Shown here piece after piece: positions 32,230-56,590 of a stretch of 64,000 nucleotides of DNA; position 1 is the first letter of the stretch; each line of letters opens with the position of its first letter. The stretch lies in NCBI RefSeq assembly GCF_028687615.1, contig NZ_JAQTZU010000012.1, positions 1-64,000 on the forward strand, read 5' to 3'. The position numbers and the translations under genes were made by a program. Under the pieces are notes generated by a model, which saw only the letters and a program-made list of their open reading frames with translations, searched no databases and was not told where the DNA came from. This DNA is from Methylovulum sp. (lineage in GTDB: Bacteria; Pseudomonadota; Gammaproteobacteria; Methylococcales; Methylomonadaceae).

Positions 32230-32771
32230 TGTTCCGCTTGCTTTTAGGTTTGGTCTTGCTGCTATATCCCTTGGCGGTCTATCTGGGCATTGGGGCATTG
32301 GCACCGTGGAAAATTTCGCTGGCTTTATTGGTGGTGCTAGTGGCCCGTTTTTTCTTATCGCCTTCAGATAAGCAATGGGGCGGCGTACTGATTGGCTTTG
32401 GTGTCCTCTATTGCGTTTTTGCCATCTGGCAGAATAGCGAGTTAAGTTTGCGCCTCTATCCGGTGGGCGTGAATGCCTGTTTTTTCCTGTTATTTTCCCT
32501 TAGTTTGATATTCCCCCCGCCCATCATTGAACGCCTGGCCAGGCTGCAAGACCCCAATTTATCGGCTCAAGGAGTCAGCCATACCCGAAAAGTGACCCAA
32601 GTCTGGTGTGTATTTTTTATCATCAATGGTTCGATTGCCGCTGGTACTGCCTTATGGGGCAGTTTTTTCTGGTGGGGGCTTTACAATGGTCTCATATCAT
32701 ACCTATTGATAGGCTTATTGATGGGTACTGAATATCTAATCCGCATCAGGTTGCAAGCGCGTGAGCAATAA
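32229..32771 (+). CDS. COG4648-type membrane protein, polyene cluster
   Basis: 180 residues with about six hydrophobic spans and few polar segments, resembling the small membrane protein always found after the ACPs in aryl polyene clusters. Its biochemical role is unknown; it probably holds the synthase or transporter at the inner membrane. ATG 32229 overlaps the ACP stop (TGATG), and a paralogue is at 41241-41897. Confidence 0.8.
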   Translation: MFRLLLGLVLLLYPLAVYLGIGALAPWKISLALLVVLVARFFLSPSDKQWGGVLIGFGVLYCVFAIWQNSELSLRLYPVGVNACFFLLFSLSLIFPPPIIERLARLQDPNLSAQGVSHTRKVTQVWCVFFIINGSIAAGTALWGSFFWWGLYNGLISYLLIGLLMGTEYLIRIRLQAREQ

Positions 32772-34470
32772 ATTGAAGCAGACACCGCTTACGCAAATCG
32801 CTTTAGGACAAGTTTCGGGAGCGCCTGTTGCTGTTTATCAAGGGCGGCAGATAAGCCACGCTGACTTTTGTCGCGATGTGTCAGCTAAAGCGGAGGCTTT
32901 AGTGCGCCAACCACAAACCGACTACGCTTTGTATTATGATGCCGCTTATCCCTTTGCCGTGATGCTGTTTGCCTTGTGGCACGCTGGCAAAGCCGTCTGG
33001 ATTGCCGCCAACAATAAGCCCGCAAACGCTGAAAAGCTGATGCAGCAAGGTTGCGCTTTATTGGGTGACTGGCCTTCTGGTGAACCCCTATCATTGCCCG
33101 GCAGCGCGGGTTCGCTAGCTTTATCTGCATTGGATTTGCAAGGCTCGCGCTTAACGCTCTTTACGTCAGGCTCCACAGGCCAGCCGCAAGCCATCCAAAA
33201 ACAGTTGTGGCAATTGCAAGCTGAAGTGGACGCTTTAGAACAACAATGGGGGGAGGCATTGGCGAACTCCCAGGTGTTGGCAACCGTCAGCCATCAGCAT
33301 ATCTATGGGTTATTGTTCAAAGTATTGTGGCCTTTGGCGGGCGGGCGTTGTTTCCATAGCCAAATATACCTAAATCCAGAGTCGCTGTTAAAAGCCGCGT
33401 TGCGGTCTTCGGCCCCGTCCTATTGGGTAGCCAGTCCGGCCCAGCTAAAAAGGCTGGATGACTTGACACCTTGGTCTGAAATGCGCCGCTTAAAAGCTAT
33501 ATTTAGCTCTGGCGGCTTCTTGGAAGCGGATGCTGTTAGGCAAATTGAAGTTCACGGTAGTGGCCCCAAACTGATAGATATTTATGGCAGCTCTGAAACC
33601 GGCGGCATTGCTTGGCGGGAACCCGTAAACGACGGACGCTGGCAAGCTTTTTCCGGCATCAGGATAACGCAAGCCACAGGCAACCAGCACTTACTACAAT
33701 CCCCTTACTTGCCCAAGGATACGCCCTATGTATTGCATGATAAGATCGAATTTTACAAAGATGGCAGGTTCAGTCTGTTAGGCCGAAGTGACCGCATCGT
33801 AAAAATAGAAGAAAAACGTCTGTCGCTGACTGAAATGGAGCAGGTGCTAGAGCAGTCGGACTGGGTAGGCCAAGCACATTGCCGGCTCTGGGGCGATAAG
33901 CGGGTGCGGGTCGCCAGTGCCATCATTTTAACGGGCTTGGGACTGGACTACCTGAACAATAAGGGGCGCAATGCGTTAATCAAAGCACTAAAAATGCACT
34001 TGCTGGACAGCTTTGAAACTGTTTTCCTACCGAGGAAATGGCTGTTCATGGATCGTTTGCCCTTATCAACCCAAGGCAAAATCGACCATGACAGCATAGC
34101 CAGTTTATTGGCCTTGGATAGCCGGATATACCCCGAACTGCAATTCTTAAGCCAAAGGGATGATGGCGTGGAATTGTCCTTGCGCACCCAAGCCAGTTTG
34201 CTGTATTTTGCCGGACATTTTCCCGAAATGCCGATTTTACCCGGTGTCACCCAACTGGCTTGGGCGGAAAACTATGGCAAGCTGTTTTTCCCCATTACCC
34301 AGCCGTTTTCAAGTATGGAAGTGGTTAAATTTAAAAAAATAATCCGCCCTGGCGACAAGCTGACCCTGCAATTAAATTGGAATGCGGACAGCGGCAAATT
34401 GTATTTCGACTTTAGTTCCGCCATCGAGTCACACAGTTCGGGCAGGCTCTTATATGGAGTTGATCAATGA
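32761..34470 (+). CDS. Acyl/aryl-ACP ligase fused to a hotdog dehydratase
   Basis: 569 residues in two parts. Residues ~1-455 form an adenylate-forming ligase with A3 motif LFTSGSTGQPQ (133-143), DIYGSSETGG and a C-terminal STQGKID region. Residues ~465-569 are a FabA/FabZ-like hotdog domain with AGHFPEMPILPG (His 486 the likely catalytic base). In most aryl polyene clusters these are two genes, ligase then dehydratase. The protein should load the aromatic acid starter onto ACP and dehydrate 3-hydroxyacyl-ACP intermediates. It starts with GTG inside the previous gene. Confidence 0.88.
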   Translation: MSNKLKQTPLTQIALGQVSGAPVAVYQGRQISHADFCRDVSAKAEALVRQPQTDYALYYDAAYPFAVMLFALWHAGKAVWIAANNKPANAEKLMQQGCALLGDWPSGEPLSLPGSAGSLALSALDLQGSRLTLFTSGSTGQPQAIQKQLWQLQAEVDALEQQWGEALANSQVLATVSHQHIYGLLFKVLWPLAGGRCFHSQIYLNPESLLKAALRSSAPSYWVASPAQLKRLDDLTPWSEMRRLKAIFSSGGFLEADAVRQIEVHGSGPKLIDIYGSSETGGIAWREPVNDGRWQAFSGIRITQATGNQHLLQSPYLPKDTPYVLHDKIEFYKDGRFSLLGRSDRIVKIEEKRLSLTEMEQVLEQSDWVGQAHCRLWGDKRVRVASAIILTGLGLDYLNNKGRNALIKALKMHLLDSFETVFLPRKWLFMDRLPLSTQGKIDHDSIASLLALDSRIYPELQFLSQRDDGVELSLRTQASLLYFAGHFPEMPILPGVTQLAWAENYGKLFFPITQPFSSMEVVKFKKIIRPGDKLTLQLNWNADSGKLYFDFSSAIESHSSGRLLYGVDQ

Positions 34471-35201: not shown

Positions 35202-36121
35202 GCCACTGGGCGCAGCTTGAAGAAAGCAGTTTCATTTGGGGAATGCAACTGTTGCTGAAAGTTTACCTGTTATTGGGGCGGCGTATTTTGCAATGCTTTT
35301 TGTATCCTGTGGTGAGCTATTATTGGCTAATTAACAAGCCTGGGCGGCAAGCCAGCCGCCACTATCTGCGTAGATTGTCGGCATACTTGCCCGAACAGGG
35401 CGGACAAAGGGCGAATTACAACAGCTACCGGCATTTTCTCAGTTTTGCCAATTCAATTATCGACAAATTAGCCGCTTTGAGCGGCTCACTATCTCTCCAA
35501 GAGATTGACTATAAAGGCCGCGAGGCGATTATTAGCCATGTTGATAAAGGCCAAGGTTTGTTGCTGCTTGGTTCCCATCTTGGCAACATAGAGGTGTTAC
35601 GCGCCATTGCGGGCTTACGCAAAGATGTGACGGTGAATGTATTGGTCCACACCCGCCACGCCGAAAAATTTAACGCCTTATTAAACCGCAACGCAGAGTC
35701 AAACCGGGTCAAGCTCATCCAAGTGACCAGCATCACTGCGGCAACCGCCATGCTATTGCAGGACAAAGTGAATGCCGGGGAGCTGGTGGTGATTGCGGCG
35801 GACAGGACGCCCGTGAGCGGACAAAACCGAGTCTCCCGCGCCATTTTTTTGGGGGATCCCGCGCCTTTCCCGCAAGGCCCCTACATTCTGGCATCCTTGC
35901 TCAAATGCCCTGTTTACACCTTATTTTGCCTAAAGCACCAACAGTTGCAGACTATTTACTTCGAGCATTTTAGCGATGCCATCGTCCTCCCGCGCAAAGA
36001 CCGCGAAGCCGCCATCCAAAAATACACCCAAGATTATGCCGACCGGCTACAGCGTTATTGCTTGAAAGCCCCCTTGCAATGGTTCAATTTCTATGATTTT
36101 TGGCAGGAAGGACATGATTAA
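35198..36121 (+). CDS. LpxL/HtrB-like lipid acyltransferase
   Basis: 307 residues with the HX4E motif HLGNIE inside LLGSHLGNIEVLR, the lipid A acyltransferase signature, and a membrane-proximal N-terminus. In this context it probably transfers an acyl or polyene chain to a lipid carrier and not to lipid A; that is inference. ATG 35198 overlaps the glycosyltransferase stop (ATGA). Confidence 0.85.
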   Translation: MSHWAQLEESSFIWGMQLLLKVYLLLGRRILQCFLYPVVSYYWLINKPGRQASRHYLRRLSAYLPEQGGQRANYNSYRHFLSFANSIIDKLAALSGSLSLQEIDYKGREAIISHVDKGQGLLLLGSHLGNIEVLRAIAGLRKDVTVNVLVHTRHAEKFNALLNRNAESNRVKLIQVTSITAATAMLLQDKVNAGELVVIAADRTPVSGQNRVSRAIFLGDPAPFPQGPYILASLLKCPVYTLFCLKHQQLQTIYFEHFSDAIVLPRKDREAAIQKYTQDYADRLQRYCLKAPLQWFNFYDFWQEGHD

Positions 36122-37643
36122 TCCAGCCGTGCTTGTTGATGGCAGCAGCTTAACCATTGAAGACATTTGCCAGATCGCCCAGCAAACGAAAACCTTGCGA
36201 TTGGGCGAAACCGCCGTTTTTAAAGACCGGATCAATAAAGGCGCCGAATTTCTCACTACGCTACTGCGGGAAGAAGGCTTTATTTACGGCGTCACCACGG
36301 GCTATGGCGACTCTTGCACCGTGCCTATCCCCATAGAGCATGTCGCCGACTTGTCGCGCCACCTCTATACCTTCCACGGCTGCGGCTTAGGCGCCCATTT
36401 TGACCTGGCGCAGACCCGTGCGATTATGGCGGTGCGGATCAATAGCCTGGCGCAAGGGTTTTCTGGTGTCCGTTATCAATTATTGCGGCAGATCAGCCTC
36501 TTGCTTGAACATGACATACTGCCTTTAATCCCGCAAGAAGGCTCGGTCGGCGCCAGCGGTGATTTAACGCCTTTGTCTTATCTGGCGGCGGTGTTGGCGG
36601 GTGAAAGGGAAGTTTGCTACCAGGGGCAAACACAAGCGACGATAAGTGTTTTTAACAACTTAAACATTGCGCCGCTCACGCTAAACCCGAAAGAAGGTTT
36701 GGCGATTATGAACGGGACGGCGGCGATGACCGCCCTTGCCTGTTTGGCGCATCAACGCGCCGCCTATTTGGCACAGTTGAACACCCGCATCACCAGCTTG
36801 GTGTCAGTTGCGCTACAAGGCAACGCCGGGCATTTTGATGAACGCCTGTTCAGTGTCAAACCCCATGCCGGGCAAATCAAAGTGGCGGGGCGTATCCGTG
36901 AGGATTTGTCGGTTGCCGCACTGCCCACCCGAAATGACACCCGTTTGCAGGATCGTTATTCTTTGCGCTGTGCGCCGCACATTATTGGCGTATTGGAAGA
37001 CGCGCTGCCTTGGTTCCGGCAATTTATTGAAAATGAACTGAATAGCGCCAATGACAACCCCATTATTGATGCGGAAAACGGACGGGTATTGCATGGCGGG
37101 CATTTTTACGGCGGCCATATTGCCTTTGCAATGGACAGCATGAAAACCGCCGTCGCCAATTTGGCGGATTTGATGGACCGGCAGTTGGCGCAACTGGTTG
37201 ACCCTAAATTTAATCATGGCTTGCCCGCCAATCTTTCTGGCGCAAAAGCCGAACAAGCCATGTTGAACCACGGCTTTAAAGCGGTACAGATCGCCGTTTC
37301 CGCATGGACGGCGGAAGCCCTGAAATTGACCATGCCCGCGAGCGTGTTTTCCCGCTCCACCGAATGCCATAACCAAGACAAAGTGAGCATGGGGACAATT
37401 GCGGCACGCGATTGCCTGCGTGTGCTGGAATTAACCGAGCAAGTTGCCGCCGCCACCTTGATAGCCGTTGTCCAAGCGGTTGAATTGCGGTGCGGCAACC
37501 AAGCCCTCAGCCCAAACTTAACGCTGACCCTGTCCCAAGTCAGGGAGCATGTGCCTTTTTTGGAGCATGACCGGGCATTGGAACAGGCATTGCGCTTATG
37601 TATAGGGCTAATACGCGACCAGCACTGGAGCTTGTATGAGTAA
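36114..37643 (+). CDS. HAL/PAL/TAL-family aromatic ammonia-lyase
   Basis: 509 residues. The MIO cofactor triad Ala-Ser-Gly is at 147-149 (SVGASGD), with YGVTTGYG near the N-terminus and NSANDNPI in the middle. The substrate-selectivity pair, in LYTFHGCG, is Phe 87-His 88; bacterial TAL has His-Leu, PAL has Phe-Leu and HAL has Ser-His, so it matches none exactly. It would release ammonia from Phe or Tyr to give cinnamate or 4-coumarate, a natural aryl starter for the polyene. AGGAAGG precedes the ATG, which overlaps the previous stop. Confidence 0.88.
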   Translation: MINPAVLVDGSSLTIEDICQIAQQTKTLRLGETAVFKDRINKGAEFLTTLLREEGFIYGVTTGYGDSCTVPIPIEHVADLSRHLYTFHGCGLGAHFDLAQTRAIMAVRINSLAQGFSGVRYQLLRQISLLLEHDILPLIPQEGSVGASGDLTPLSYLAAVLAGEREVCYQGQTQATISVFNNLNIAPLTLNPKEGLAIMNGTAAMTALACLAHQRAAYLAQLNTRITSLVSVALQGNAGHFDERLFSVKPHAGQIKVAGRIREDLSVAALPTRNDTRLQDRYSLRCAPHIIGVLEDALPWFRQFIENELNSANDNPIIDAENGRVLHGGHFYGGHIAFAMDSMKTAVANLADLMDRQLAQLVDPKFNHGLPANLSGAKAEQAMLNHGFKAVQIAVSAWTAEALKLTMPASVFSRSTECHNQDKVSMGTIAARDCLRVLELTEQVAAATLIAVVQAVELRCGNQALSPNLTLTLSQVREHVPFLEHDRALEQALRLCIGLIRDQHWSLYE

Positions 37644-46415: not shown

Positions 46416-46793
46416 ATGAAAACTAAATTTTCCATCCTCATCTTTATTTTCAGCCTTGCGGGCTGTCTGTTTCAACGCCCGGAATATCTGAAAGCAATAA
46501 CGGCGGCTGAATTAAACAAAACCATGCAAAACGGGGACATATTCCTTGTGGATGTCCACACGCCCGAACAGCGGCATATTAAAGGCACGGATATTTTCGT
46601 CCCCTACAACGAAATAGAAAAATACCAAAACCGTTTCCCCAGCGACAAAAACGCCCCCATCTATCTTTATTGCAAAAGCGGGCCGATGGCCAATGCCGCC
46701 GCACACGCCCTTTATAAATTGGGTTACCGTAATATGACTAACCTTGATGGCGGCATGGATGCTTGGAGAAAGAGTGGTTTTGATGTTGAATGA
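46416..46793 (+). CDS. Rhodanese-domain lipoprotein
   Basis: 125 residues with a lipobox (SLAGC, Cys 17) and a single rhodanese domain whose loop YCKSGPMA holds the active Cys 86. It is periplasmic and membrane-anchored, with sulfur transfer or thiol chemistry as the likely activity. It follows the antiporter by 7 bases. It overlaps the ketosynthase-like gene by 11 bases, so it is part of the same transcript. Confidence 0.85.
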   Translation: MKTKFSILIFIFSLAGCLFQRPEYLKAITAAELNKTMQNGDIFLVDVHTPEQRHIKGTDIFVPYNEIEKYQNRFPSDKNAPIYLYCKSGPMANAAAHALYKLGYRNMTNLDGGMDAWRKSGFDVE

Positions 46794-47556
46794 TAAACCC
46801 ACGCACTGGGATTTTGTCTTAAAGACCTGGGCCGTTTGGCCGCCATTGACCGCGCCCAGTGATTTGGAATTGGAAGCATTGCAAAAAAACCGGCTGGCAT
46901 TTATTCCCCATCACTTGAAACGGCGTTTGTCGCCCTTGGCGAAAACCGTTTTTTGCGCGGCGGGCCAATGTGATAGCCTAAAAGACAACTTGAAAGACAC
47001 CTTGAAAAACAATTGGCCCGTGGTGTTTAGCTCAACACATGGTGAATTGGGCAAATCCTTGGAAATGATTAAATTGATCGAAGCAGGCGAGGAAATTTCG
47101 CCCACGGCATTTAGCCTATCCGTCCACAATGCTATTGCCGGGCTGTTCTCGATAGTTTACGGCAACACGGCTGAAATGACGGTGTTAGCCTCTGGGGAAG
47201 ATGGCATAGGCCCGGCGTTCCTAGAGGCATTAGGCTTGCTGCAAGAAGGCGCGGCAGACGTGTTGATCGTCTTTTATGACGAACCGCTGCCCGATTTTTA
47301 CCCGGCGGCACCCTTTCAATTAAGCACCGATAGCCGATGTGCACTGATGTTGGCAATCAGCAAAGACGGGGATGGGCAAACCATACAGTTCCAGCGTGAT
47401 GGGCAGTGTGGCTATGCCGGTGAACAACCGGTACAGCTTCCGCTATTGATACAGTTCCTATCCGGTGCGGATACCCGCTTACAGATTAAAACGCCTAGAC
47501 AAACTTGGCATTGGCAGAAGCTGGAAAGCCTAGTTGAAACAGCTGAAACCGCATAG
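46783..47556 (+). CDS. Ketosynthase-like N-terminal domain protein, polyene cluster
   Basis: 257 residues, matching the half-ketosynthase proteins that every aryl polyene cluster contains (pfam Ketoacyl-synt_2 type): SVHNAIAGLFSIVYGN and EDGIGPAFLEALGLLQEGAADVLIVFYDE. The catalytic Cys and His residues of a true ketosynthase are absent, so it is probably a chain-length or structural partner. ATG 46783 lies inside the rhodanese gene. Confidence 0.75.
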   Translation: MLNDKPTHWDFVLKTWAVWPPLTAPSDLELEALQKNRLAFIPHHLKRRLSPLAKTVFCAAGQCDSLKDNLKDTLKNNWPVVFSSTHGELGKSLEMIKLIEAGEEISPTAFSLSVHNAIAGLFSIVYGNTAEMTVLASGEDGIGPAFLEALGLLQEGAADVLIVFYDEPLPDFYPAAPFQLSTDSRCALMLAISKDGDGQTIQFQRDGQCGYAGEQPVQLPLLIQFLSGADTRLQIKTPRQTWHWQKLESLVETAETA

Positions 47557-47811: not shown

Positions 47812-49053
47812 ATGCCTTCTAAAAAAAATATTGCCATTATCGGCGGCGGCCCCGCATCTAGTGCCTTAGCGATACATTTGTGCCGACAAGGTTATAAAGC
47901 CGTCATTTTCGCCCTGCCGGAACGCGCACCGATTTTAGTGGGCGAATCCTTTGTGCCTATGATTGTGCCGCTCTTGCAAGAATTGGGTGTGGAAGCCGAA
48001 GTGGCCAGCTATAGCGTTTACAAACCCGGTGCGTGTTTCACTTATAACGCCGATGAAGTTTTTGAATTTCGCTTTGCCGACACCCCTAGCGATTTGCCGT
48101 CTTATTCGTATAACGTCCCTAGGGACCGCTTTAATGCGACCTTACTCACCGCCGCACAGGACGCAGGCGCAAAACTGATTGCGCGTATGGTGCAGTTAAG
48201 CCGTGTCGATGACACTGACCGCATCGCCTTGGATGCAGAATCATTACAAGCGGCGGCGGGTTGTTGGGATTCGGCAGAACCGGATTTGATCGTTGATGCC
48301 GCAGGCCGCGCCAATTTGATTGGCAGGCTGCTCAACATCCCCATGCAAAAAGGCCCACGGCAAGATGTCGCACTATTCGCCCATGTGGACAAGACCGAAT
48401 TGGTTGATCCGGGTTATGTGCATAATGACCGGATGGATCAGGGCTGGTGCTGGCGTATTCCTTTGCCCGGACGGGTTTCTTTTGGCTTTGTCGTGCCTGA
48501 GGCTTATGCCAAGCAACATGGGGAAACGCCTCAAGAGCAATATGAACAATTGTTAAAAACCGATTCGGTGTTGCAACGTTTGGCTCCTGAAGCCAAGCGG
48601 GTGACGGAAGTGTTGCGCTTCAACAATTACCAGTCCATCTCGGACCGGATATGCGGCGAAAACTGGATCATGCTGGGTGATGCGGGTGGCTTTGTCGATC
48701 CGGTATTTTCCAGTGGCCTATTGATCGCACTGGACAGCGCGAAAAAATTGGCGGACACCCTGCTGGAAAATAAACCCTTGGCGGATTACGAAGCCCTCAC
48801 CCGTCGGCATTTACATGCGTGGTTTGAAATCGTCGGCTATTACTACGACGGCCGTTTGATGGGCAGCATCAAGGCCGGGCAAACCATGCCTGTCAACCGC
48901 TTCACCCGCTGGTTGCTGGCTTGGGTCAGCGCCCGCGTGAGCCGGATTTTTAGCGGGGCGGCGGCAAGCAACCCATTCTGCCTGAATTTGCTACGGTTTT
49001 TGGTGAAATACACGGTGATAGGATTAAGCCCTGATCGTTACAAAATAAAATAG
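47812..49053 (+). CDS. Halogenase-like flavoprotein 1
   Basis: 413 residues. FAD-binding GGGPASSALAIHL near residue 11, then GESFVP (44-49), a candidate catalytic Lys 71 in YKPGACF, the diagnostic WCWRIP (212-217, WxWxIP) and LGDAGGFVDPVFSSG. These together are the pattern of flavin-dependent halogenases acting on phenol- or pyrrole-like rings, several of which work on carrier-bound substrates. The following gene, 12 bases on, encodes a carrier protein. Alternatively it is a non-halogenating monooxygenase of the same superfamily. Confidence 0.75.
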   Translation: MPSKKNIAIIGGGPASSALAIHLCRQGYKAVIFALPERAPILVGESFVPMIVPLLQELGVEAEVASYSVYKPGACFTYNADEVFEFRFADTPSDLPSYSYNVPRDRFNATLLTAAQDAGAKLIARMVQLSRVDDTDRIALDAESLQAAAGCWDSAEPDLIVDAAGRANLIGRLLNIPMQKGPRQDVALFAHVDKTELVDPGYVHNDRMDQGWCWRIPLPGRVSFGFVVPEAYAKQHGETPQEQYEQLLKTDSVLQRLAPEAKRVTEVLRFNNYQSISDRICGENWIMLGDAGGFVDPVFSSGLLIALDSAKKLADTLLENKPLADYEALTRRHLHAWFEIVGYYYDGRLMGSIKAGQTMPVNRFTRWLLAWVSARVSRIFSGAAASNPFCLNLLRFLVKYTVIGLSPDRYKIK

Positions 49054-49065
49054 CTGAGGTGTTTA

Positions 49066-49359
49066 ATGGCAAAGAGGCATACAAAAATGACCGCCAACCT
49101 GACCCAAGATGAAATCGAAAGCCAATTGTGCGATTTTCTCCACGCCAATATCCTGGCAGGCGATGTGGCTGTGTCTGCTGATACTGAATTGGTGCTGATT
49201 GGCGTGGATTCCTTTTCGCTGATGGAATTGGTGTTGTTTATTGAACGCCGCTTCGGCTTGGAATTGCCGGCGGAAGCCTTAACGCCCGACAATATTGCCA
49301 GTGTCAGGACCTTAAGCGCGTATTGCCTGGCCTTGTTGACGCAAAACCGCCATGTTTGA
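49066..49359 (+). CDS. Acyl/peptidyl carrier protein 3
   Basis: 97 residues with phosphopantetheine site GVDSFSLMEL (Ser 49). The sequence is unlike the two ACPs at 31.6-32.2 kb and closer to stand-alone carrier domains of non-ribosomal peptide type. GAGGTG is well placed before ATG 49066. It overlaps the condensation-like gene by 8 bases. It probably holds the substrate that the adjacent ligase activates and the flavoproteins modify. Confidence 0.85.
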   Translation: MAKRHTKMTANLTQDEIESQLCDFLHANILAGDVAVSADTELVLIGVDSFSLMELVLFIERRFGLELPAEALTPDNIASVRTLSAYCLALLTQNRHV

Positions 49360-50656
49360 ATCCGCCAGCCCCTTACCTGATAGCATCACCCTAAATGGGG
49401 CCGATTATTTCTGTTTGCAGTTGGATAGGCTTATGTGGCAAGCCAGCGGCAAACGCAATGTCTGCACCTTGGCGGTGACGTTGGCGGAACGCTTGACGCT
49501 GGCGGATTTACAGCAGCACTTAAGCCAACGTCCGGCGTATCAATGGCTTTGCCGCTTACGCTTGCGTGCAGGGCTACCGTTTAGCCTCGCAAAATGGGTC
49601 TATGTTGCCAAGGCGGAATTACCGACGATTAGCGAACATCATCTGGCAGATTCTGACACTCTACCCGACGGCCTGCTTTCGGCGGCTTTGGATATTAACA
49701 GCCAAGCGCCGTTTAAGATTGATTTGTTACAGCTAGGCGAGGCAGAATCCGTACTGGTTTTCACTTGGCATCATGTCTTAATGGATGCCCACGGCGGCGA
49801 GCTGTTTATCCGCTATTTAGGGATGCCAGCCGCGCTAAAACCACCTAGCTGGCTTGCGCTTGACGGGCCTAAGCTACCGCTAAAAATCCGTGGCAAAATT
49901 GCCTCGGACATGAAGCAATTCCTTTACGACACCTCGTGTTTGCCCATATTGTCGCTGTATAAAGAAAACCTTAGCAAACCCCAGGTGTGTTATCGCGTCC
50001 TATCGTTCACGCCCGAACAAACGCAGGCCATCAACGAACAGGCCAGGCAACGGGATGCGGGTTTTTTAGCCAGTGCGTTTTATCTTGCGGCAACGACCTA
50101 TGCCGTGGCGCAAATCCAGAAACAACGTGGCTTGCTGGACGGCGACGTGCTGGCCCCCGTACCCTTGGACCGCCGTAAGCGGGGCGCACCGGGTGCGATA
50201 CTGGGCAATCAGGTCAGCTTCCTTTTTTATCGCCTTCCCAATGCCATCTTAGAAGATGTGCCTACGATGACCGCCGAATTGATCACACAAATGAAGGCAT
50301 TGATGCGTTCCGAAAGCCCTGGGCATTACACCATCATGATGGATTTTTTGCGGCGGCTGCCTGGCTTTCTCTACCGTCGCCTGTTGAAAGCGCCTACCAA
50401 AGGCTTGATGGCGAGTTTCTTTTATTCCGATACCGGCGATTCCTTGCAGGATTTTACCGCCCTTTTCGGGCAATCAGTTAAGAGCGCCATCCATTATCCG
50501 CCCAATATGTACCCGCCTGGCATGACCTTTATTTTTAGCCGCTGCCAAGGTGCATTGCAAATCACCTTGGCTTATATGCAGGCGGATATCAGCGAACTGG
50601 AAGCGGAACAATTGCTAGCTACGGTAAGTGGCGTTTTGCTGGGCAATCAGGGCTGA
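49352..50656 (+). CDS. Stand-alone condensation-domain-like acyltransferase
   Basis: 434 residues with an HHxxxDxxGG motif (HHVLMDAHGG, His 140-Gly 149), the catalytic signature of condensation domains and related PapA-type and wax-ester acyltransferases. The second half contains PVPLDRRKRGAPG and GNQVSFLFYRLP, and no DFGWG motif of typical NRPS condensation domains. It likely transfers a carrier-bound acyl group to an alcohol or amine. It is not part of ordinary aryl polyene clusters as I know them. Confidence 0.75.
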   Translation: MFESASPLPDSITLNGADYFCLQLDRLMWQASGKRNVCTLAVTLAERLTLADLQQHLSQRPAYQWLCRLRLRAGLPFSLAKWVYVAKAELPTISEHHLADSDTLPDGLLSAALDINSQAPFKIDLLQLGEAESVLVFTWHHVLMDAHGGELFIRYLGMPAALKPPSWLALDGPKLPLKIRGKIASDMKQFLYDTSCLPILSLYKENLSKPQVCYRVLSFTPEQTQAINEQARQRDAGFLASAFYLAATTYAVAQIQKQRGLLDGDVLAPVPLDRRKRGAPGAILGNQVSFLFYRLPNAILEDVPTMTAELITQMKALMRSESPGHYTIMMDFLRRLPGFLYRRLLKAPTKGLMASFFYSDTGDSLQDFTALFGQSVKSAIHYPPNMYPPGMTFIFSRCQGALQITLAYMQADISELEAEQLLATVSGVLLGNQG

Positions 50657-50658
50657 GT

Positions 50659-51918
50659 ATGCGCTGTGATGTCGCCGTGATAGGCGCGGGTGCAGCCGGT
50701 ATCGCCGCCGCTGTGGCGGCGGCAGAGGCGGGGGCAAACGTCGTCCTCGTGGAACGTTACGGTTTTACGGGCGGCTTGGCTACGACCGCCTTAGTGGGGA
50801 CTATTTGCGGCTTGTTTTACCGCCATCCCAGCACGGCGCGATATGCCGTACAGGGTTTTGCGCGTGAATTTGCCGACGCGGTGCAAGCGGCAAGCCAAAC
50901 CCACGCTGTCCGCTTTGGCGAAGGTTTGCATTTTTTGCCTTACCGTCCCGCCGCCTTTCATCAAATAGCGGCAAAACGGTTGCAACAAGCCGGGGTGCGT
51001 TTATTTTTGCACAGCCATGTCAGCGGCCTCCAAGCCAGTCAAAGACAGATACACGAATTACGCATCCAAACCCAATCTCAGATACTGGGCCTACATCCGG
51101 CAGCCGTCGTCGATTGCAGCGGCACGGCCCAAGTCTCCCTGCTGGCTGGCATAGACAAGATAACGCAGGAAAACTACCAAGCCGGGGCCTTTGTGTTTCA
51201 GGTCAGCGGCTTACCCCGGATAGCACCGGAAGCGCTGTCCTTGGCGTTGATACGCGGGCTTAAGCGGGGCATAGCATCGGGCAGCTTAGAATCCCATTGT
51301 GATCGCCTGTCCATCATTCCCGGCTCAATCGCCCAAGGCCAGGCACTGCTGAAATTGGGGATGCCAGTGCCGTTCGACGGTTCCATCGCCTGCCTAAGCC
51401 AATATGAATTGGAAGCGCGTGAACGTAGCGTCAGCATTGTGGATTATCTGAGCCATCACGAGCCGTCATTGGTAAACTTGTGCATCAATGCGATGGCGAC
51501 CGAAGTCGGTATCCGCACTAGCGAACGATCGCAAGGCATCGCCGTATTAGATGAAAACCATGTGCTAAACTGCCTCAAACCTGACAGTGGCGTGGCGGTG
51601 GGAGCTTGGCCTATCGAATATTGGGGCGCGGGGCGTAAACCGGAATTGCGCTATTTCGCTATGGATGACGCGTATTGGATAACGGCGGAAATGCTGGTGT
51701 CCCGCCATCTCGACAACCTGTTTTTTGCAGGCCGGGGCTTATCGGCGACAGAAGCGGCGATAGCCTCGGCCCGTGTCATCGGCACATGTTTAAGCACGGG
51801 CTATGCGGCGGGATGTCTGGCGGCTGAATTCAGTGATACGGGGATTTGGCAAACCGCCATTGCAAAAATCCGTCGGCGGCAAATCGCGGCCCACAGTGCC
51901 GTTAGCCCTTACTCTTAG
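50659..51918 (+). CDS. FAD-dependent oxidoreductase of the carrier-protein module
   Basis: 419 residues starting with the Rossmann motif AVIGAGAAGIAAAVAAAEAG and VERYGFTGGLATT (FAD_oxidored type). The C-terminus has LDNLFFAGRGLSATEAAIASARV, an FAD-contacting stretch. Its reaction is unknown; oxidation or dehydrogenation of a carrier-bound acyl group is plausible. It starts two bases after the previous stop (TGAGTATG). Confidence 0.75.
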   Translation: MRCDVAVIGAGAAGIAAAVAAAEAGANVVLVERYGFTGGLATTALVGTICGLFYRHPSTARYAVQGFAREFADAVQAASQTHAVRFGEGLHFLPYRPAAFHQIAAKRLQQAGVRLFLHSHVSGLQASQRQIHELRIQTQSQILGLHPAAVVDCSGTAQVSLLAGIDKITQENYQAGAFVFQVSGLPRIAPEALSLALIRGLKRGIASGSLESHCDRLSIIPGSIAQGQALLKLGMPVPFDGSIACLSQYELEARERSVSIVDYLSHHEPSLVNLCINAMATEVGIRTSERSQGIAVLDENHVLNCLKPDSGVAVGAWPIEYWGAGRKPELRYFAMDDAYWITAEMLVSRHLDNLFFAGRGLSATEAAIASARVIGTCLSTGYAAGCLAAEFSDTGIWQTAIAKIRRRQIAAHSAVSPYS

Positions 51919-51941
51919 CTCATTTGAAACTTTGTCATTCT

Positions 51942-53372
51942 ATGGATTCTGCCTATCAATTGCTTGAAGTTGCCGCCAAAACTTGGCCTGATCGCCCGGC
52001 CTTGGTGGATGGCTATGGCACAATGACTTACCATGAATTATTTGAGCAAACTGAAACCCTAAAGGCCCGCTTGTTGCGAACAGGTTTAAGCAAAGGCTTA
52101 GGTTTGGCGGTTATGGGAAGCAATGGCCGCGCCTTTGTTGCTGGCATGTTGGCGGGCATGGGCTGTGGCGCGGTGGTCGTGCCGCTGTCCCATCAACTGA
52201 AATTGGCAGAAATAAGCCAAATCTTGCTGGATACGGGAGTACACGCGGTGTTGGATGACCAATCGGGTATCGTCCCGACTCAAGGTGACAGTGGCTTTAT
52301 CCCGTTTTCGGAGCAAACCTTGCGCTTTACTTGGATAAGCACCGCTCCCAGGCAAGCACTGACACCTTTGCCCGATGCGGCTTTTATCCGTTACACCTCT
52401 GGCACGACAGGCAACAGCAAAGGCGTGGTCTTAACGCACCGCCGTATTTTGGCGCGGGTCGAAAACGCCAGCACAGCCCTGCAACTGGATTGCCATGATG
52501 CGGTGCTGTGGATATTGCCGATGGCCTTCCATTTTTTGGTCAGCATTCTGGTGTATATCCGCGTCGGGGCAAAAATCATCGTCTGCAAAGACATATTGGC
52601 GGCGACCTTAATTAAGGATGCCAACCAAGAGGGGGCGACCCTGCTGTATGCCGCTCCTATGCACTTCCGTTTATTGGCGGCGGATACATCGGGAGTGCAG
52701 ATGCCAGCCCTTAAAGTGGCTATTTCCACGTCATCAGCCATTCCGCCAGCCATCGCCGAAGCCTTTACGCGCCGCTTTAGTGTTCCTGTGGCCCAGGCTT
52801 ACGGCATTATTGAGGCCGGCTTACCCTTGCTGGATAGCCTAACTGGGCAAGCAGACCCGCATAGCGTAGGCTTCCCGACCGCTGGTTTTAACGTGGCAGT
52901 GCTGGACGATGATTACCTGCCAGTGCCGGAAGGACAAATCGGACGGCTGGCTATTTCTGGCCCCGGCCTGTTCGATGCCTACCTGAAACCTTGGCAAACG
53001 GCTGATCAAGTCTTGCAACACGGCTGGTTTATGGCGGGCGATATTGCCCAATGCCGGGACGATGGCCGTATCATTATTTGCGGGCGCGAAAAGGCCATGA
53101 TTAATGTATCGGGCAATAAGGCTTTTCCTGAAGAAATTGAAGCGGTCTTGAACGCACATCCTGACATAGCCGCCTGCCGTGTCTTCGGGCAAACACATCC
53201 TTTGTTGGGGGAAGTCGTTTGTGCAGAAATGGTCATGGCGCATCAGGCCACTTGGGATGTGGAAGCGCTGCTGCAATTTTGCCGGCAACGGCTGTCCACC
53301 TACAAAGTGCCGCAACGCTTACAACGGGTTACGCAAATCAGCCATACCGCAAGCGGAAAAGTTAAAAGGTAG
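51942..53372 (+). CDS. Adenylate-forming acyl/aryl ligase 2
   Basis: 476 residues. A3 motif YTSGTTGNSKGV (151-162), A5-type YGIIEAG, A7/A8 MAGDIAQCRDDGR and CGREKAMINVSG, and the catalytic Lys in SGKVKR at the very end (473). It should activate a carboxylic acid as the adenylate and load carrier protein 3 or CoA. There is no fused carrier. The start at ATG 51942 is preferred to TTG 51924. It is the last gene before a 363-base gap. Confidence 0.85.
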   Translation: MDSAYQLLEVAAKTWPDRPALVDGYGTMTYHELFEQTETLKARLLRTGLSKGLGLAVMGSNGRAFVAGMLAGMGCGAVVVPLSHQLKLAEISQILLDTGVHAVLDDQSGIVPTQGDSGFIPFSEQTLRFTWISTAPRQALTPLPDAAFIRYTSGTTGNSKGVVLTHRRILARVENASTALQLDCHDAVLWILPMAFHFLVSILVYIRVGAKIIVCKDILAATLIKDANQEGATLLYAAPMHFRLLAADTSGVQMPALKVAISTSSAIPPAIAEAFTRRFSVPVAQAYGIIEAGLPLLDSLTGQADPHSVGFPTAGFNVAVLDDDYLPVPEGQIGRLAISGPGLFDAYLKPWQTADQVLQHGWFMAGDIAQCRDDGRIIICGREKAMINVSGNKAFPEEIEAVLNAHPDIAACRVFGQTHPLLGEVVCAEMVMAHQATWDVEALLQFCRQRLSTYKVPQRLQRVTQISHTASGKVKR

Positions 53373-53735
53373 GCGTTCAATTATTACCGAGGTAACTCGC
53401 AAAAATAAACCACGACAGATTAAATGTATTAAATCCACTAAAAGAATTGTCCACGAAAGACACGAAAAGCACGAAAAAAAACAATTGAAAGCATCGTGTT
53501 GTAGTGCTTTTCGTGTCTTTCGTGGACTCTATTTTTTTCTTGTGCCAGAGAGGGCTATGTAACTGTTTTTACAACGCAGAAAATGGGCAAAAAGACTAGC
53601 GAATTGGGGATATTCTTCGCCGGAAATCGCCTAAGTACGTTATAATCTTCGGCTGTTCAAAATACCCGTTTACTTTTCACACAGGCCAATGGCAATATTT
53701 TTATATTAACGGAAATCAAATAAGCGGCGCAGACA
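53373..53735. repeat. 363-base gap with a perfect 24-bp inverted repeat
   Basis: GTCCACGAAAGACACGAAAA + GCAC (53449-53472) has its exact reverse complement at 53504-53527, separated by 31 bases. This is a REP-type hairpin common in some methanotroph and other proteobacterial genomes. A -10-like TATAAT is at 53641-53646 inside TACGTTATAAT, 90 bases before the next gene; its -35 is weak. Confidence 0.88.
53635..53646 (+). promoter_or_regulatory. Possible promoter -10 box for the 53.7-kb operon part
   Basis: GTACGTTATAAT ends in a perfect TATAAT. The same TACGTTATAAT string occurs upstream of the gene at 61672. The -35 region (about 53618) does not match TTGACA, so the call is weak, but a promoter here would separate the second part of the polyene cluster from the first. 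Confidence 0.35.
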
Positions 53736-54965
53736 ATGATTGGGCAAAAAAAAATAGTAATTATCGGGGCGGGGCCATCGGGCAGCATCGCGGCGGCCTT
53801 ATTGCAAAAAAAAGGCCATCAGGCCATTATTTTAGAACGGGAATTGTTCCCGCGTTTTAGCATTGGTGAAAGCCTGTTGCCGCAGTGCATGGAATTCATT
53901 GACGAGGCCGGCATGTTGCCGGCCGTCATTGATGCAGGTTTCCAGTTTAAAACCGGGGCCGATTTTATCTGCCGCGATAAATATTCCAAATTCTATTTTT
54001 CTGACAAATTTAGCCCAGGCTTTGGTACGACCTTTCAAGTGCAACGCGACCGTTTTGATGCCTTGCTGGCTTCCGAGGCGCAACGCCAAGGCGCGATTAT
54101 CCATTGGCGGCACACCGTCTTAGACGCGGATTTTTCGGGTGAAAAGCCGGTTTTGACCGCATCTGACGAACACGCCGCAAACTATCAAATAGAAGCCGAT
54201 TTTGTCCTGGACGCCAGCGGTTTTGGCCGGGTTTTGCCGCGTTTGTTAAAGCTGGAAAGCCCGACAAACTTCCCCGTCAGGCAAGCCCTGTTCACCCATA
54301 TTGAAGACCGGATTAGCTGTGGACACTATGACCGCCAGCAAATCCGTATCGTCATCCATCCCGACATGGCCGATGTCTGGTACTGGCTGATCCCCTTTAG
54401 CAATGGCCGTTGTAGCTTAGGGGTCGTCGGCGAACCTAAAGTATTTGATGCTTTTGCGGATAATCAACACGCTTTCCATGCCTTGATCGCAGAAGAACCT
54501 TCCTTGTCGGCTTTGTTGCCGAATGCCATCTACGACACGCCCATCAACAGCATTAAAGGCTACAGTGCCAATGTCAGTTCCTTGTACGGCAATGGCTATG
54601 CTTTACTGGGCAATGCGGGTGAATTTTTGGATCCGGTGTTTTCTTCAGGCGTGACCATCGCGATGAAATCGGCGAGCTTGGCGACTGCCGTGCTAGATCG
54701 CCAGCTTACCGGGCAAGCGGTCAATTGGCAGAAAGATTATGCCGAACCTTTGCAAAAAGGCGTGGACACTTTTCGGACTTTTGTCACGTCATGGTATGAA
54801 GGTGGATTGCAGGACGCGATTTTTTATAACCAGCAACAACCCAATATCAAAGCCATGATCTGCTCCATTTTGGCGGGTTATGCCTGGGACGAGAACAATC
54901 CTTATGTCAAAAACTCGCGCAACCGTTTGAACACCTTGGTGGAGCTATGCCGCATGCCGGCGTGA
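53736..54965 (+). CDS. Halogenase-like flavoprotein 2
   Basis: 409 residues with FAD motif GAGPSGSIAAALL, GESLLP (44-49), a candidate catalytic Lys 72 in GFQFKTGADF, WYWLIP (215-220, WxWxIP) and GNAGEFLDPVFSSG. This is a closer match to phenol/pyrrole flavin-dependent halogenases than the flavoprotein at 47812. It could put bromine or chlorine on the aryl head of the polyene, as in xanthomonadins. It directly precedes ketosynthase 1, four bases apart. Confidence 0.78.
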   Translation: MIGQKKIVIIGAGPSGSIAAALLQKKGHQAIILERELFPRFSIGESLLPQCMEFIDEAGMLPAVIDAGFQFKTGADFICRDKYSKFYFSDKFSPGFGTTFQVQRDRFDALLASEAQRQGAIIHWRHTVLDADFSGEKPVLTASDEHAANYQIEADFVLDASGFGRVLPRLLKLESPTNFPVRQALFTHIEDRISCGHYDRQQIRIVIHPDMADVWYWLIPFSNGRCSLGVVGEPKVFDAFADNQHAFHALIAEEPSLSALLPNAIYDTPINSIKGYSANVSSLYGNGYALLGNAGEFLDPVFSSGVTIAMKSASLATAVLDRQLTGQAVNWQKDYAEPLQKGVDTFRTFVTSWYEGGLQDAIFYNQQQPNIKAMICSILAGYAWDENNPYVKNSRNRLNTLVELCRMPA

Positions 54966-54968
54966 TGG

Positions 54969-56153
54969 ATGAAGTTTTACCTGAATGATCTTGGCCTAGT
55001 GTCGCCTGTGGGCGATTCCAAAACAGCAAGCCTCAAGCGTATTTTATCAGGCGACCGGACGGGCTTAGTGTTGGCGGAAGACCCGCTTGCCGGAAATCCC
55101 GTTTATGTGGGCAAGGTCCAAGCCAGCCTGCCGCTGATTGATAATGCCGCCAGCGTCTATTATAACTGCCGGAACAATCGACTGTTACTGGCGGCATTGG
55201 CCCAAATCAAAGGCACGGTCGATGCCATGATCCGGTGTTTTGGGGAAGACCGGGTGGGCGTGGTGATAGGCACCAGCACCTCCGGGCTTAGCAACACCGA
55301 ATCGGCATGGGCTGACGTGGCTAAAACCGGGCATAAACCCGAATCCTTCCATTATAAGCAACAGCAATTGGCCGGCGGGGCTGATTTTCTGGCGGCCACC
55401 TTAGGCATTAAAGGCCCTGCTTACGCCATCTCCACAGCCTGTTCATCCAGCGGCAGGGCTTTTGCCTCCGCCCGCCGCTTACTCGCACTCAATATCTGTG
55501 ACGCGGTGATCGTCGGCGGCGCCGATAGCTTGTGCCGCTATACCCTGCATGGCTTCGCCGCCTTAGAATCGGTTGCGACGGGCTTATGCAAACCCTTCGG
55601 ATTACACAGGGATGGCATCAACATAGCGGAGGCCGCCGCCTTATTTGTGATGAGCAAAGAAACAGGACCTGTGCAATTATCCGGTATCGGCGCCAGCAGT
55701 GACGCCCACCACTTCTCCGCCCCCGCACCTGCCGGAACAGCCGTCATGAAAGCCATGCAGATGGCTTTGCAAGAAGCCGGAACAACACCGGACGCCATCG
55801 ACTATATCAACCTACATGGCACTGCTACACCCTTAAACGATGCGATGGAAAGCCGAAGTGTGTTTGAAGTTTTTACTAACCAGCCCGCAGTCAGCTCCAC
55901 CAAGGGCCTAACCGGACACGCTTTAGGCGCCGCCGCCGCACTGGAACTGGGGCTATGTTGGCTATTGCTGGCAACGGATGACCCCGCAGGTGAATTACCC
56001 CCCAATATTAATGACGACGAATTGGATACAAAACTGCCAGCACTCAATTTCGTCAGGCCAGGGCAATATTTAGGACGCCAAATCACGACTTGTCAGAGCA
56101 ACTCTTTTGCATTTGGTGGCAATAACCTCTCGATAGTCATGGCCCGCGTATGA
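54969..56153 (+). CDS. Beta-ketoacyl-ACP synthase 1, polyene cluster
   Basis: 394 residues, FabF-like, with the complete active site: Cys 158 (STACSSSG), His in NLHGTATPLND and His in STKGLTGHALGA. It elongates the polyene chain by condensing malonyl units. Among aryl polyene clusters two such synthases flank the dehydratase and ketoreductase genes, as here. It overlaps the dehydratase gene by 4 bases. Confidence 0.92.
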   Translation: MKFYLNDLGLVSPVGDSKTASLKRILSGDRTGLVLAEDPLAGNPVYVGKVQASLPLIDNAASVYYNCRNNRLLLAALAQIKGTVDAMIRCFGEDRVGVVIGTSTSGLSNTESAWADVAKTGHKPESFHYKQQQLAGGADFLAATLGIKGPAYAISTACSSSGRAFASARRLLALNICDAVIVGGADSLCRYTLHGFAALESVATGLCKPFGLHRDGINIAEAAALFVMSKETGPVQLSGIGASSDAHHFSAPAPAGTAVMKAMQMALQEAGTTPDAIDYINLHGTATPLNDAMESRSVFEVFTNQPAVSSTKGLTGHALGAAAALELGLCWLLLATDDPAGELPPNINDDELDTKLPALNFVRPGQYLGRQITTCQSNSFAFGGNNLSIVMARV

Positions 56154-56590
56154 ACGGTTACGCATTGACTGACTTATTGCCACACGCTGGCGGCATGATG
56201 CTATTGGATAAAATTATCCGCTTTGATGACCAGTCGATGGTGGCTGAAGTGATCGTGAATGGTAACGGGCTGTTTGGCGACGAACAATCCGTACCCGCTT
56301 TGGTCGGTATAGAATACATGGCCCAGGCCATATCGGCGCATAGCGGCATGATGGATAAAATAGCAGGGCGGCAAAGCTACTTGGGTTTTTTGTTGGGGAC
56401 GCGCTTGTACACCAGCAATGTAGCCAGTTTTTTGACAGGTGCCGTATTGACAGTGCATGTCAAAATCGTTTTGCAAGAGCAAGGGCTAGGCGTGTTTGAT
56501 TGCAAAATTACCGCACCTGGCGTGTTGGTCGAAGCGAAATTGAATGTTTATCAACCAAAATCGGAACATAATCGAGTGCTTACCGAATAA
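56150..56590 (+). CDS. 3-Hydroxyacyl-ACP dehydratase, polyene cluster
   Basis: 146 residues, hotdog fold with LLPHAGGMMLLDKI (catalytic His of FabZ-like dehydratases) and ALVGIEYMAQAISAHSG. Dehydration without enoyl reduction leaves the conjugated double bonds of the pigment. This is the second dehydratase of the cluster, besides the one fused to the ligase. Confidence 0.92.
   Translation: MNGYALTDLLPHAGGMMLLDKIIRFDDQSMVAEVIVNGNGLFGDEQSVPALVGIEYMAQAISAHSGMMDKIAGRQSYLGFLLGTRLYTSNVASFLTGAVLTVHVKIVLQEQGLGVFDCKITAPGVLVEAKLNVYQPKSEHNRVLTE

Follow-up and report, generated by a model that had tools for sequence, protein, structure and literature searches.

We analyzed a window of 64,000 nucleotides from Methylovulum sp. 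(contig NZ_JAQTZU010000012.1, positions 1 to 64,000 of the forward strand), the whole stretch to which the coordinates below refer. It contains an aryl polyene cluster with genes for two flavoproteins resembling flavin-dependent halogenases, P1 and P2. An earlier note on this DNA had picked out these two open reading frames, and both are present at the positions it gave.

47812..49053, + strand: P1, 413 residues, flavin-dependent-halogenase-like, opens a five-gene cassette; K71, motif W212-P217
53736..54965, + strand: P2, 409 residues, flavin-dependent-halogenase-like, in the aryl polyene core; K72, motif W215-P220

P1 and P2 belong to separate gene modules. In its cassette P1 is followed, in this order, by a carrier protein, a condensation-like acyltransferase, a flavin adenine dinucleotide (FAD) oxidoreductase and an AMP ligase.

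49066..49359, + strand: acyl carrier protein (ACP) of the cassette; PF00550, 35.2 bits; phosphopantetheine site GVDSFS
49352..50656, + strand: condensation-like acyltransferase; motif WHHVLMDAHG; weak PF00668 match of 19.1 bits, below the cut-off
50659..51918, + strand: FAD-dependent oxidoreductase; PF12831, 216 bits
51924..53372, + strand: AMP-forming acyl/aryl ligase; PF00501, 213.6 bits
53440..53536, no strand: inverted repeat with 38-nt arms, 84% complementary, and a 21-nt spacer

The intergenic gaps within the cassette are 12, -8, 2 and 5 bp. Those within the core that P2 forms with two beta-ketoacyl-ACP synthases (KS1 and KS2), ApeP and a ketoreductase (KR), in the order P2-KS1-ApeP-KR-KS2, are 3, -4, 18 and -7 bp. 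The borders are wider, with 255 bp before the cassette and 363 bp between cassette and core. The inverted repeat lies in the latter gap, and a 17-base motif resembling its arm matches nowhere else in the window.

Because each enzyme has its own gene module, two enzymes for two substrates, one of the options raised in the earlier note, is probable. We give about even chances to a reading in which two enzymes of the flavin-dependent halogenase type have different jobs, P2 tailoring the aryl polyene core and P1 serving as the carrier-dependent enzyme of the cassette. Next to P1 the cassette has a ligase and a carrier protein whose sites are intact, as in a module of the PltF/PltL/PltA kind. The Asp-Ser of the carrier-protein site is kept in 18 of 18 homologs, as are the second His and the Asp of the condensation-like motif, whose first His is kept in 16. 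The condensation-like acyltransferase has a single match in the genome. Solved relatives of the FAD oxidoreductase align over its first 40-odd residues only, and the best solved relatives of the ligase are feruloyl-CoA and oxalate-CoA ligases.

Motifs and family profiles of P1 and P2

An exact motif search placed the two lysines (K71 and K72), the GES motifs and the WxWxIP motifs just where the earlier note had them. P1 has GGGPAS at residue 11, GESFVP at 44, KPGACF at 71, WCWRIP at 212 and DPVFSSG at 296; the P2 counterparts are GAGPSG (11), GESLLP (44), KTGADF (72), WYWLIP (215) and DPVFSSG (299). The FAD motif ascribed to both proteins is present in both, except that the third glycine of GxGxxG is serine in P1; this position is alanine or serine in 17 of 41 aligned P1-clade proteins. 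The residues before the DP motif are GN in P2, in 26 of 26 P2-clade proteins and in the solved structure 3nix, and GD in the other seven solved references.

Both proteins exceed the cut-off of 21 bits for Pfam Trp_halogenase PF04820 (P1 99.8 bits, P2 85.6 bits). At E 0.001 this profile has four matches in the 3.49-Mb genome, all inside the P1 and P2 genes; of 14 control genomes, five, that of E. coli among these, have matches to it as well. Neither protein passes the NCBIfam equivalog for CmlS (NF033113, cut-off 900; P1 102.6 bits, P2 149.3 bits) or the NCBIfam cut-offs for QhpG (240; 118.6 and 92.1 bits) and LodB (400; 75.7 and 75.3 bits). QhpG is the best NCBIfam match of P1, though under the cut-off. 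We rejected P1 as a hydroxylase of the QhpG or LodB type, given these scores and the presence of the lysine. A recent duplication of one halogenase was also rejected, as P1 and P2 are 29% identical and fall into different clades.

Phylogeny, conserved residues and structure

The tree comprised 91 proteins. Support is 100/100 both for the P1 clade (41 rows: 37 of the 77 loci with a P1 relative in a scan of named genomes, the window and L085-L087) and for the P2 clade (26 rows plus 3nix). Enzymes from other methanotrophs and from further aryl polyene-like clusters make up a third clade (11 rows, 99/99). PltA, Mpy16 and ChlB4 group together, apart from the P1 and P2 clades, and in this tree neither P1 nor P2 lies inside a clade of proven halogenases. 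The branch joining P1 and P2 is weak (75/86), the branching order near it is likewise weak, and the tree has long branches meeting in other places; we therefore make no claim about the nearest characterized halogenase. The earlier note had named a grouping of both proteins with non-halogenating oxygenases or reductases as a refutation. Such a grouping was not seen in this tree, which held two LodB-like proteins only. These came from a search of 185 genomes that gave two matches, both under the family cut-off, hence the term LodB-like; QhpG sequences were found in none of the 185 genomes, with nothing in the controls either, and QhpG was judged from its paper alone.

All 41 P1-clade proteins, all 26 P2-clade proteins and all eight solved references have the lysine and WxWxIP. 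Both are absent from the two LodB-like proteins, which have cysteine where the halogenases have lysine. GES is kept throughout the P1 and P2 clades as well, and the lysine and WxWxIP are invariant in the third clade too. This invariance argues for halogenase-type chemistry, without deciding it.

Two exclusions bear on the alignments: L100 was left out of alignment A4 and the tree, and the partial matches L013 and L014 were left out of alignment A1. The reading frame of L100:1715-2968, the P1 homolog of one metagenome bin, is interrupted by a stop near codon 343, through either a broken gene or an assembly error. Plasmid-borne proteins of Variovorax, Caballeronia and Azospirillum join the third clade when added. 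At the loci L200, L199, L198, L067, L104 and L110, third-clade flavoproteins are encoded in other aryl polyene clusters, one of them arcuflavin-like, or, in Nitrosomonas, near the P1 cassette.

AlphaFold2 models of both proteins have high pLDDT (P1 92.2, P2 91.4). Ranked by E-value, the best Foldseek matches of P1 are Bmp2, ChlB4, PltA, FasV and Mpy16 (TMq 0.72-0.77); in sequence, the top four among its solved relatives are ChlB4, Mpy16, FasV and PltA. For P2, 3nix comes first (TMq 0.93-0.94; 45% identical), followed by the halogenases ChlB4, PltA and Mpy16 (0.87-0.89).

Distribution of the P1 cassette

Where does the cassette occur? Close matches to P1 (at least 62% identity) are found in 10 of 201 genomes of the window's order, Methylococcales, and further genomes drop to 34% or less. 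P1-carrying named strains include Methylovulum psychrotolerans Sph1, with locus L089, and Methyloglobulus morosus KoM1, with locus L090. Two sets of loci, merged, give 18 distinct close loci including the window; six of the second set's 14 loci repeat contigs of the first. The titles of those 14 name Methylococcales in 11 cases and 'bacterium' or 'Gammaproteobacteria' alone in three. All four partners accompany P1 in 14 of the 18 loci, and the other four are cut by a contig end. The cassette ligase is displaced by about 3.6 kb in L093, and the carrier gene of L089 begins 1.3 kb after P1. In the class samples, P1 was matched at 1e-40 in 6 of 369 genomes, namely the window, three of the P1 clade (L085-L087) and two of the third clade (L016 and L088).

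P1 relatives carry six phylum labels (Pseudomonadota, Verrucomicrobiota, Myxococcota, Bacteroidota, Rokuibacteriota and, with one locus, Planctomycetota), although most P1-bearing genomes of the named-genome scan are metagenome bins and single placements may be wrong. We tested 63 distant loci (L103-L165) with profiles, 30 of them with at least 8 kb on both sides. All four partners are present in 14 of these 30 and two or more in 20. The 14 complete distant cassettes span four phyla (Myxococcota 7, Verrucomicrobiota 4, Pseudomonadota 2, Rokuibacteriota 1). At the same thresholds, neither the full set of four partners nor the FAD oxidoreductase occurs in any of 14 aryl polyene stretches without P1; two or three partners occur in 4 of the 14, so the count of loci with two or more partners is not specific. 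Across eleven aryl polyene clusters of the order that lack P1 (L074-L084), no cassette-type FAD oxidoreductase exceeds 29 bits. Four of these (L074, L075, L076 and L078) have a distant condensation-like match (107-119 bits) and a carrier match near P2, and in three of the four a ligase scores 93-120 bits; these clusters may have a related acyl module in place of the cassette.

Several observations on the cassette weigh against our reading. Ten of the 30 well-flanked distant loci lack any cassette partner. Both complete cassettes from Pseudomonadota (L104 and L110) were in the profile training set. None of seven Bacteroidota P1 loci has a cassette partner, with one locus alone well flanked. Moreover, the cassette and the aryl polyene KS (60%) are apart in two Methylothermaceae-type genomes, G012 and G022, either on different contigs or separated by 1.7 Mb (in G022, P1 is at 2,085 kb and the KS at 393 kb), so the link between cassette and pigment is not forced. 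In a third genome of this type, G046, no aryl polyene KS was found at the 60% identity level.

These genomes bear on a somewhat unlikely alternative, that the cassette makes a separate small molecule unrelated to the pigment and is merely co-located with it. A ligase and a carrier of its own come with the cassette, and the KS lies elsewhere in two of the three Methylothermaceae-type genomes, whose loci show no aryl polyene gene match in the stretch covered (L070 and L071 are largely one-sided, L072 two-sided). The Verrucomicrobiota cassettes L149, L152 and L158 likewise have no KS or lyase nearby. Set against this, the cassette sits inside aryl polyene-like clusters, of differing types, both in the window's family and in Myxococcota-labeled loci, and all three Bacteroidota P1 genomes examined carry a P2-clade gene elsewhere in the genome.

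The P1 match of G022 (L072:9400-10521) is missing about the first 40 residues from its frame, and is either a shortened gene or frameshifted. A search of viral contigs for P1 gave 39 pattern matches with no relative among them. Plasmid relatives of P1 occur in 33 records, with 26-31% identity among the 25 matches listed. We found no description of the P1 cassette in the literature searched, which lay mostly outside subscription journals.

Distribution and neighbors of P2

Close matches to P2 (at least 54% identity) occur in 66 of the 201 order genomes. The gene lies within about 0.8 kb of KS1 in all 11 P1-free clusters (L074-L084) and in all four P1-bearing core modules (the window, L065, L066 and L069). 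P2 was matched at 1e-50 in 16 of 339 genomes of the class samples, window included, and a P2-clade gene is present in 35 of 198 Bacteroidia. Among 15 Bacteroidia stretches, drawn from 12 of the 35 P2-matching genomes and from three P1-bearing ones, a lyase gene lies in the P2 stretch in eight and adjoins P2 in five. A P2-clade gene is also part of the aryl polyene clusters of Pseudoalteromonas (under the annotation 'tryptophan 7-halogenase'), Acinetobacter and Cupriavidus, and none of these three stretches has a P1 cassette. With its supported clade, its GN variant and its place near a KS, P2 is an ordinary member of a widespread aryl polyene enzyme clade that has no characterized members in the literature consulted.

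A P2-clade match in two records of Neisseria gonorrhoeae is in two pieces and may be a broken gene. A P2 pseudogene in genus g3 was considered and rejected for the loci checked, as the '1 TAA inside' flag is the terminal stop and the frames reach the normal end.

Seven Verrucomicrobiota loci have both P1 and P2. A methyltransferase gene stands beside P2 in six of them (L105, L108, L111, L113, L120 and L122); none was seen in the seventh, L106, but there P2 runs off the contig end. In L120 (11209-13572) P2 and the methyltransferase (PF00891/PF21212) are fused in a 788-codon frame beside an aromatic amino acid lyase, and the other five pairs are unfused.

Is P2 a halogenase at all? It could instead be a non-halogenating ring or polyene oxygenase that hydroxylates, after which the methyltransferase may methylate the new hydroxyl. 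We regard this as possible, at less than even chances. The methyltransferase partnership and its fusion in L120 fit it, as do the GN in place of GD throughout the clade and the spread of P2 through aryl polyene clusters. The fold itself can hydroxylate, as the peptidyl-Trp dihydroxylase QhpG shows (PMC7876137; this and the other papers cited are drawn on for parts of their text). Trp181 and Trp183 line the QhpG channel (PMC7876137), and we take them to be the WxW pair. WxWxIP with a conserved lysine, which the earlier note gave as the mark of a flavin-dependent halogenase, is present in all eight solved references but is no proof, since a hydroxylase appears to keep WxW. What opposes an oxygenase is the lysine, invariant in the P2 clade and replaced by cysteine in both LodB-like proteins, together with the solved relatives of P2, which after 3nix are halogenases, and the flexirubins, which show both ring methylation and ring chlorination (PMC3992019). 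For tailoring of the head group by P2, halogenation is slightly favored over hydroxylation on three grounds: the invariant lysine, the expected substrate, an electron-rich phenol, and a methyltransferase partner in line with the methyl/chloro pattern of flexirubins.

The other option in the earlier note, two positions, would have P1 and P2 act in succession on the same aryl ring or chain, as in dibrominated xanthomonadin. Both enzymes are in one cluster, and they are near neighbors in the Verrucomicrobiota loci L105, L106, L111, L113, L120 and L122. We nevertheless consider sequential action quite improbable: a carrier protein and a ligase of its own accompany P1, and six of the ten P1 genomes of the order sample (G012, G022, G046, G113, G174 and G175) have no P2 match at 1e-60.

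Gene content of the aryl polyene cluster

The earlier note's assignment to the aryl polyene class is well founded: the window has ApeP- and ApeI-like dehydratases, a KS pair, a KR, carrier proteins, a HAL-type lyase, LolA and MMPL. The genes comprise an acyltransferase, two carrier proteins (these three named by matching annotated counterparts), an AMP ligase-ApeI fusion, a glycosyltransferase, a lipid acyltransferase, an aromatic amino acid lyase, a thioesterase, a CrtI-like flavoprotein, a LolA-like protein, an MMPL protein, a chain-length-factor-like protein and the P2-KS1-ApeP-KR-KS2 core.

32761..34470, + strand: AMP ligase fused to an ApeI-like dehydratase
36093..37643, + strand: aromatic amino acid lyase; PF00221, 538.6 bits
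38055..39581, + strand: CrtI-like flavoprotein; crtI_fam, 194.4 bits, below the cut-off of 238.1
46744..47556, + strand: N-terminal KS-like protein of the chain-length-factor type; PF13723, 186.2 bits
54969..56153, + strand: KS1, beta-ketoacyl-ACP synthase of NCBIfam PRK09185 type, directly 3' of P2; 467.8 bits, cut-off 407
56150..56590, + strand: ApeP-like dehydratase; PF22817, 83.2 bits
56609..57334, + strand: FabG-like ketoreductase; PF13561, 182.6 bits
57328..58560, + strand: KS2, beta-ketoacyl-ACP synthase of NCBIfam PRK09116 type; 674.3 bits, cut-off 470

The lyase probably supplies the aryl starter. Its NCBIfam matches are all below cut-off, the best being BagA/FevW tyrosine ammonia-lyase (433 bits), followed by histidine ammonia-lyase (419) and FlxA (351).

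Discussion

The gene content, the module boundaries, the recurrence of both modules, the invariant catalytic-type residues and the fold are matters of observation, and from them we propose how the two enzymes might work. P2 would act on the lyase-derived aryl head group or on its carrier-bound polyene, most likely halogenating the ring next to a phenol, as flexirubin rings are known to be chlorinated and methylated. In the cassette, the AMP ligase would load an acid onto the carrier protein, and P1, acting in the manner of PltA together with the FAD oxidoreductase, would oxidize or halogenate the carrier-bound acid. We infer this dependence of P1 on an acyl-carrier thioester from gene order and its nearest relatives. 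The condensation-like enzyme could then transfer the acyl group to an acceptor, most likely an aryl polyene lipid. A halogenated pigment, as the earlier note proposed, would be a plausible product.

Further points tell against a division of labor between two halogenase-type enzymes. The highest TM-scores of P1 belong to 3nix, an uncharacterized protein of lower E-value rank (TMq 0.76-0.80). P2-clade genes are so common in the order and in Bacteroidia that halogenation by every enzyme of the clade would be a surprise. P2 matches reach no more than 29-34% in the P1 genomes of Nitrosomonas and Myxococcales, two of six further P1 genomes, and the order genomes with P1 that lack a P2 match count here as well. 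We met no tested function for any P1-clade or P2-clade member in the literature consulted. In two Xanthomonas species the xanthomonadin cluster includes a halogenase gene, and the Lysobacter pigment, made without that gene, is non-brominated (PMC3691225), which favors a link between gene and product in that lineage. The link breaks in Azoarcus BH72, which has a halogenase-annotated gene, yet its proposed aryl-heptaene, arcuflavin, is non-brominated (PMC3949708).

What would our reading mean for aryl polyenes? Ring tailoring in proteobacteria, Bacteroidota and Verrucomicrobiota would have one candidate in the P2 clade, and the P1 cassette suggests that aryl polyene clusters can be joined by a second module, one for acyl modification. 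In its boldest form, which we think unlikely, the cassette is an undescribed transferable module, complete in four phyla or more, which makes a halogenated acyl group on its own carrier protein and esterifies aryl polyene lipids with it. The pigments would then bear a halogenated pendant as well as an aryl ring modified by P2.

Comparison with known systems

Aryl polyene clusters are more common in Methylococcaceae than in other methanotroph families (PMC11964084); the word halogen is absent from the main text of that report. No paper joining an aryl polyene with a flavin-dependent halogenase was found in the literature searched. The window shares lyase, KS, dehydratase, KR and LolA genes with flexirubin and other aryl polyene clusters (the flx cluster of Chitinophaga pinensis, PMC3992019, and those of Acinetobacter and Pseudoalteromonas), and the polyene ring of flexirubins varies in methylation and chlorination (PMC3992019).

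The xanthomonadin and arcuflavin clusters resemble the window in being aryl polyene clusters with a halogenase-annotated gene (PMC3691225, PMC3838355, PMC3949708). They differ in starting from 3-hydroxybenzoate (PMC3949708), whereas the window's cluster would start from a lyase product. In Xanthomonas, XanB1, a 'reductase/halogenase', adjoins an ACP and a ligase (PMC3838355); it was considered as a counterpart of P1. The aryl polyene clusters of Caballeronia and Azospirillum contain third-clade enzymes. Most of the arcuflavin genes, as given in Table 1 of PMC3949708, are present in the Azospirillum stretch, which has no XanB2-annotated gene. Since a third-clade stretch has most of these genes, the xanthomonadin/arcuflavin 'halogenase' probably belongs to the third clade and not with P1 or P2, a placement by gene order in a comparison that held no named Xanthomonas or Azoarcus sequence.

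P2 is most like 3nix, an uncharacterized flavoprotein of Cytophaga hutchinsonii of the same clade (45% identical, TMq 0.94), which shares the GN variant. For P1 the nearest models are ligase/carrier/halogenase systems. PltF, PltL and PltA take these roles in pyrrole halogenation, and PltA, Mpy16 and ChlB4 presumably all act on carrier-bound acids. Like these systems, the cassette combines a ligase, a carrier protein and an enzyme of the flavin halogenase type with the same fold, lysine and WxWxIP. Unlike PltA, Mpy16 and ChlB4, P1 lies outside their clade, at about 23-26% identity, and unlike PltF/PltL/PltA the cassette adds a PF12831 oxidoreductase and a condensation-like acyltransferase. Judged by gene content and clade, the P1 cassette is the more interesting part of the locus, resembling known ligase/carrier/halogenase systems while bringing two extra conserved enzymes and a clade of its own.

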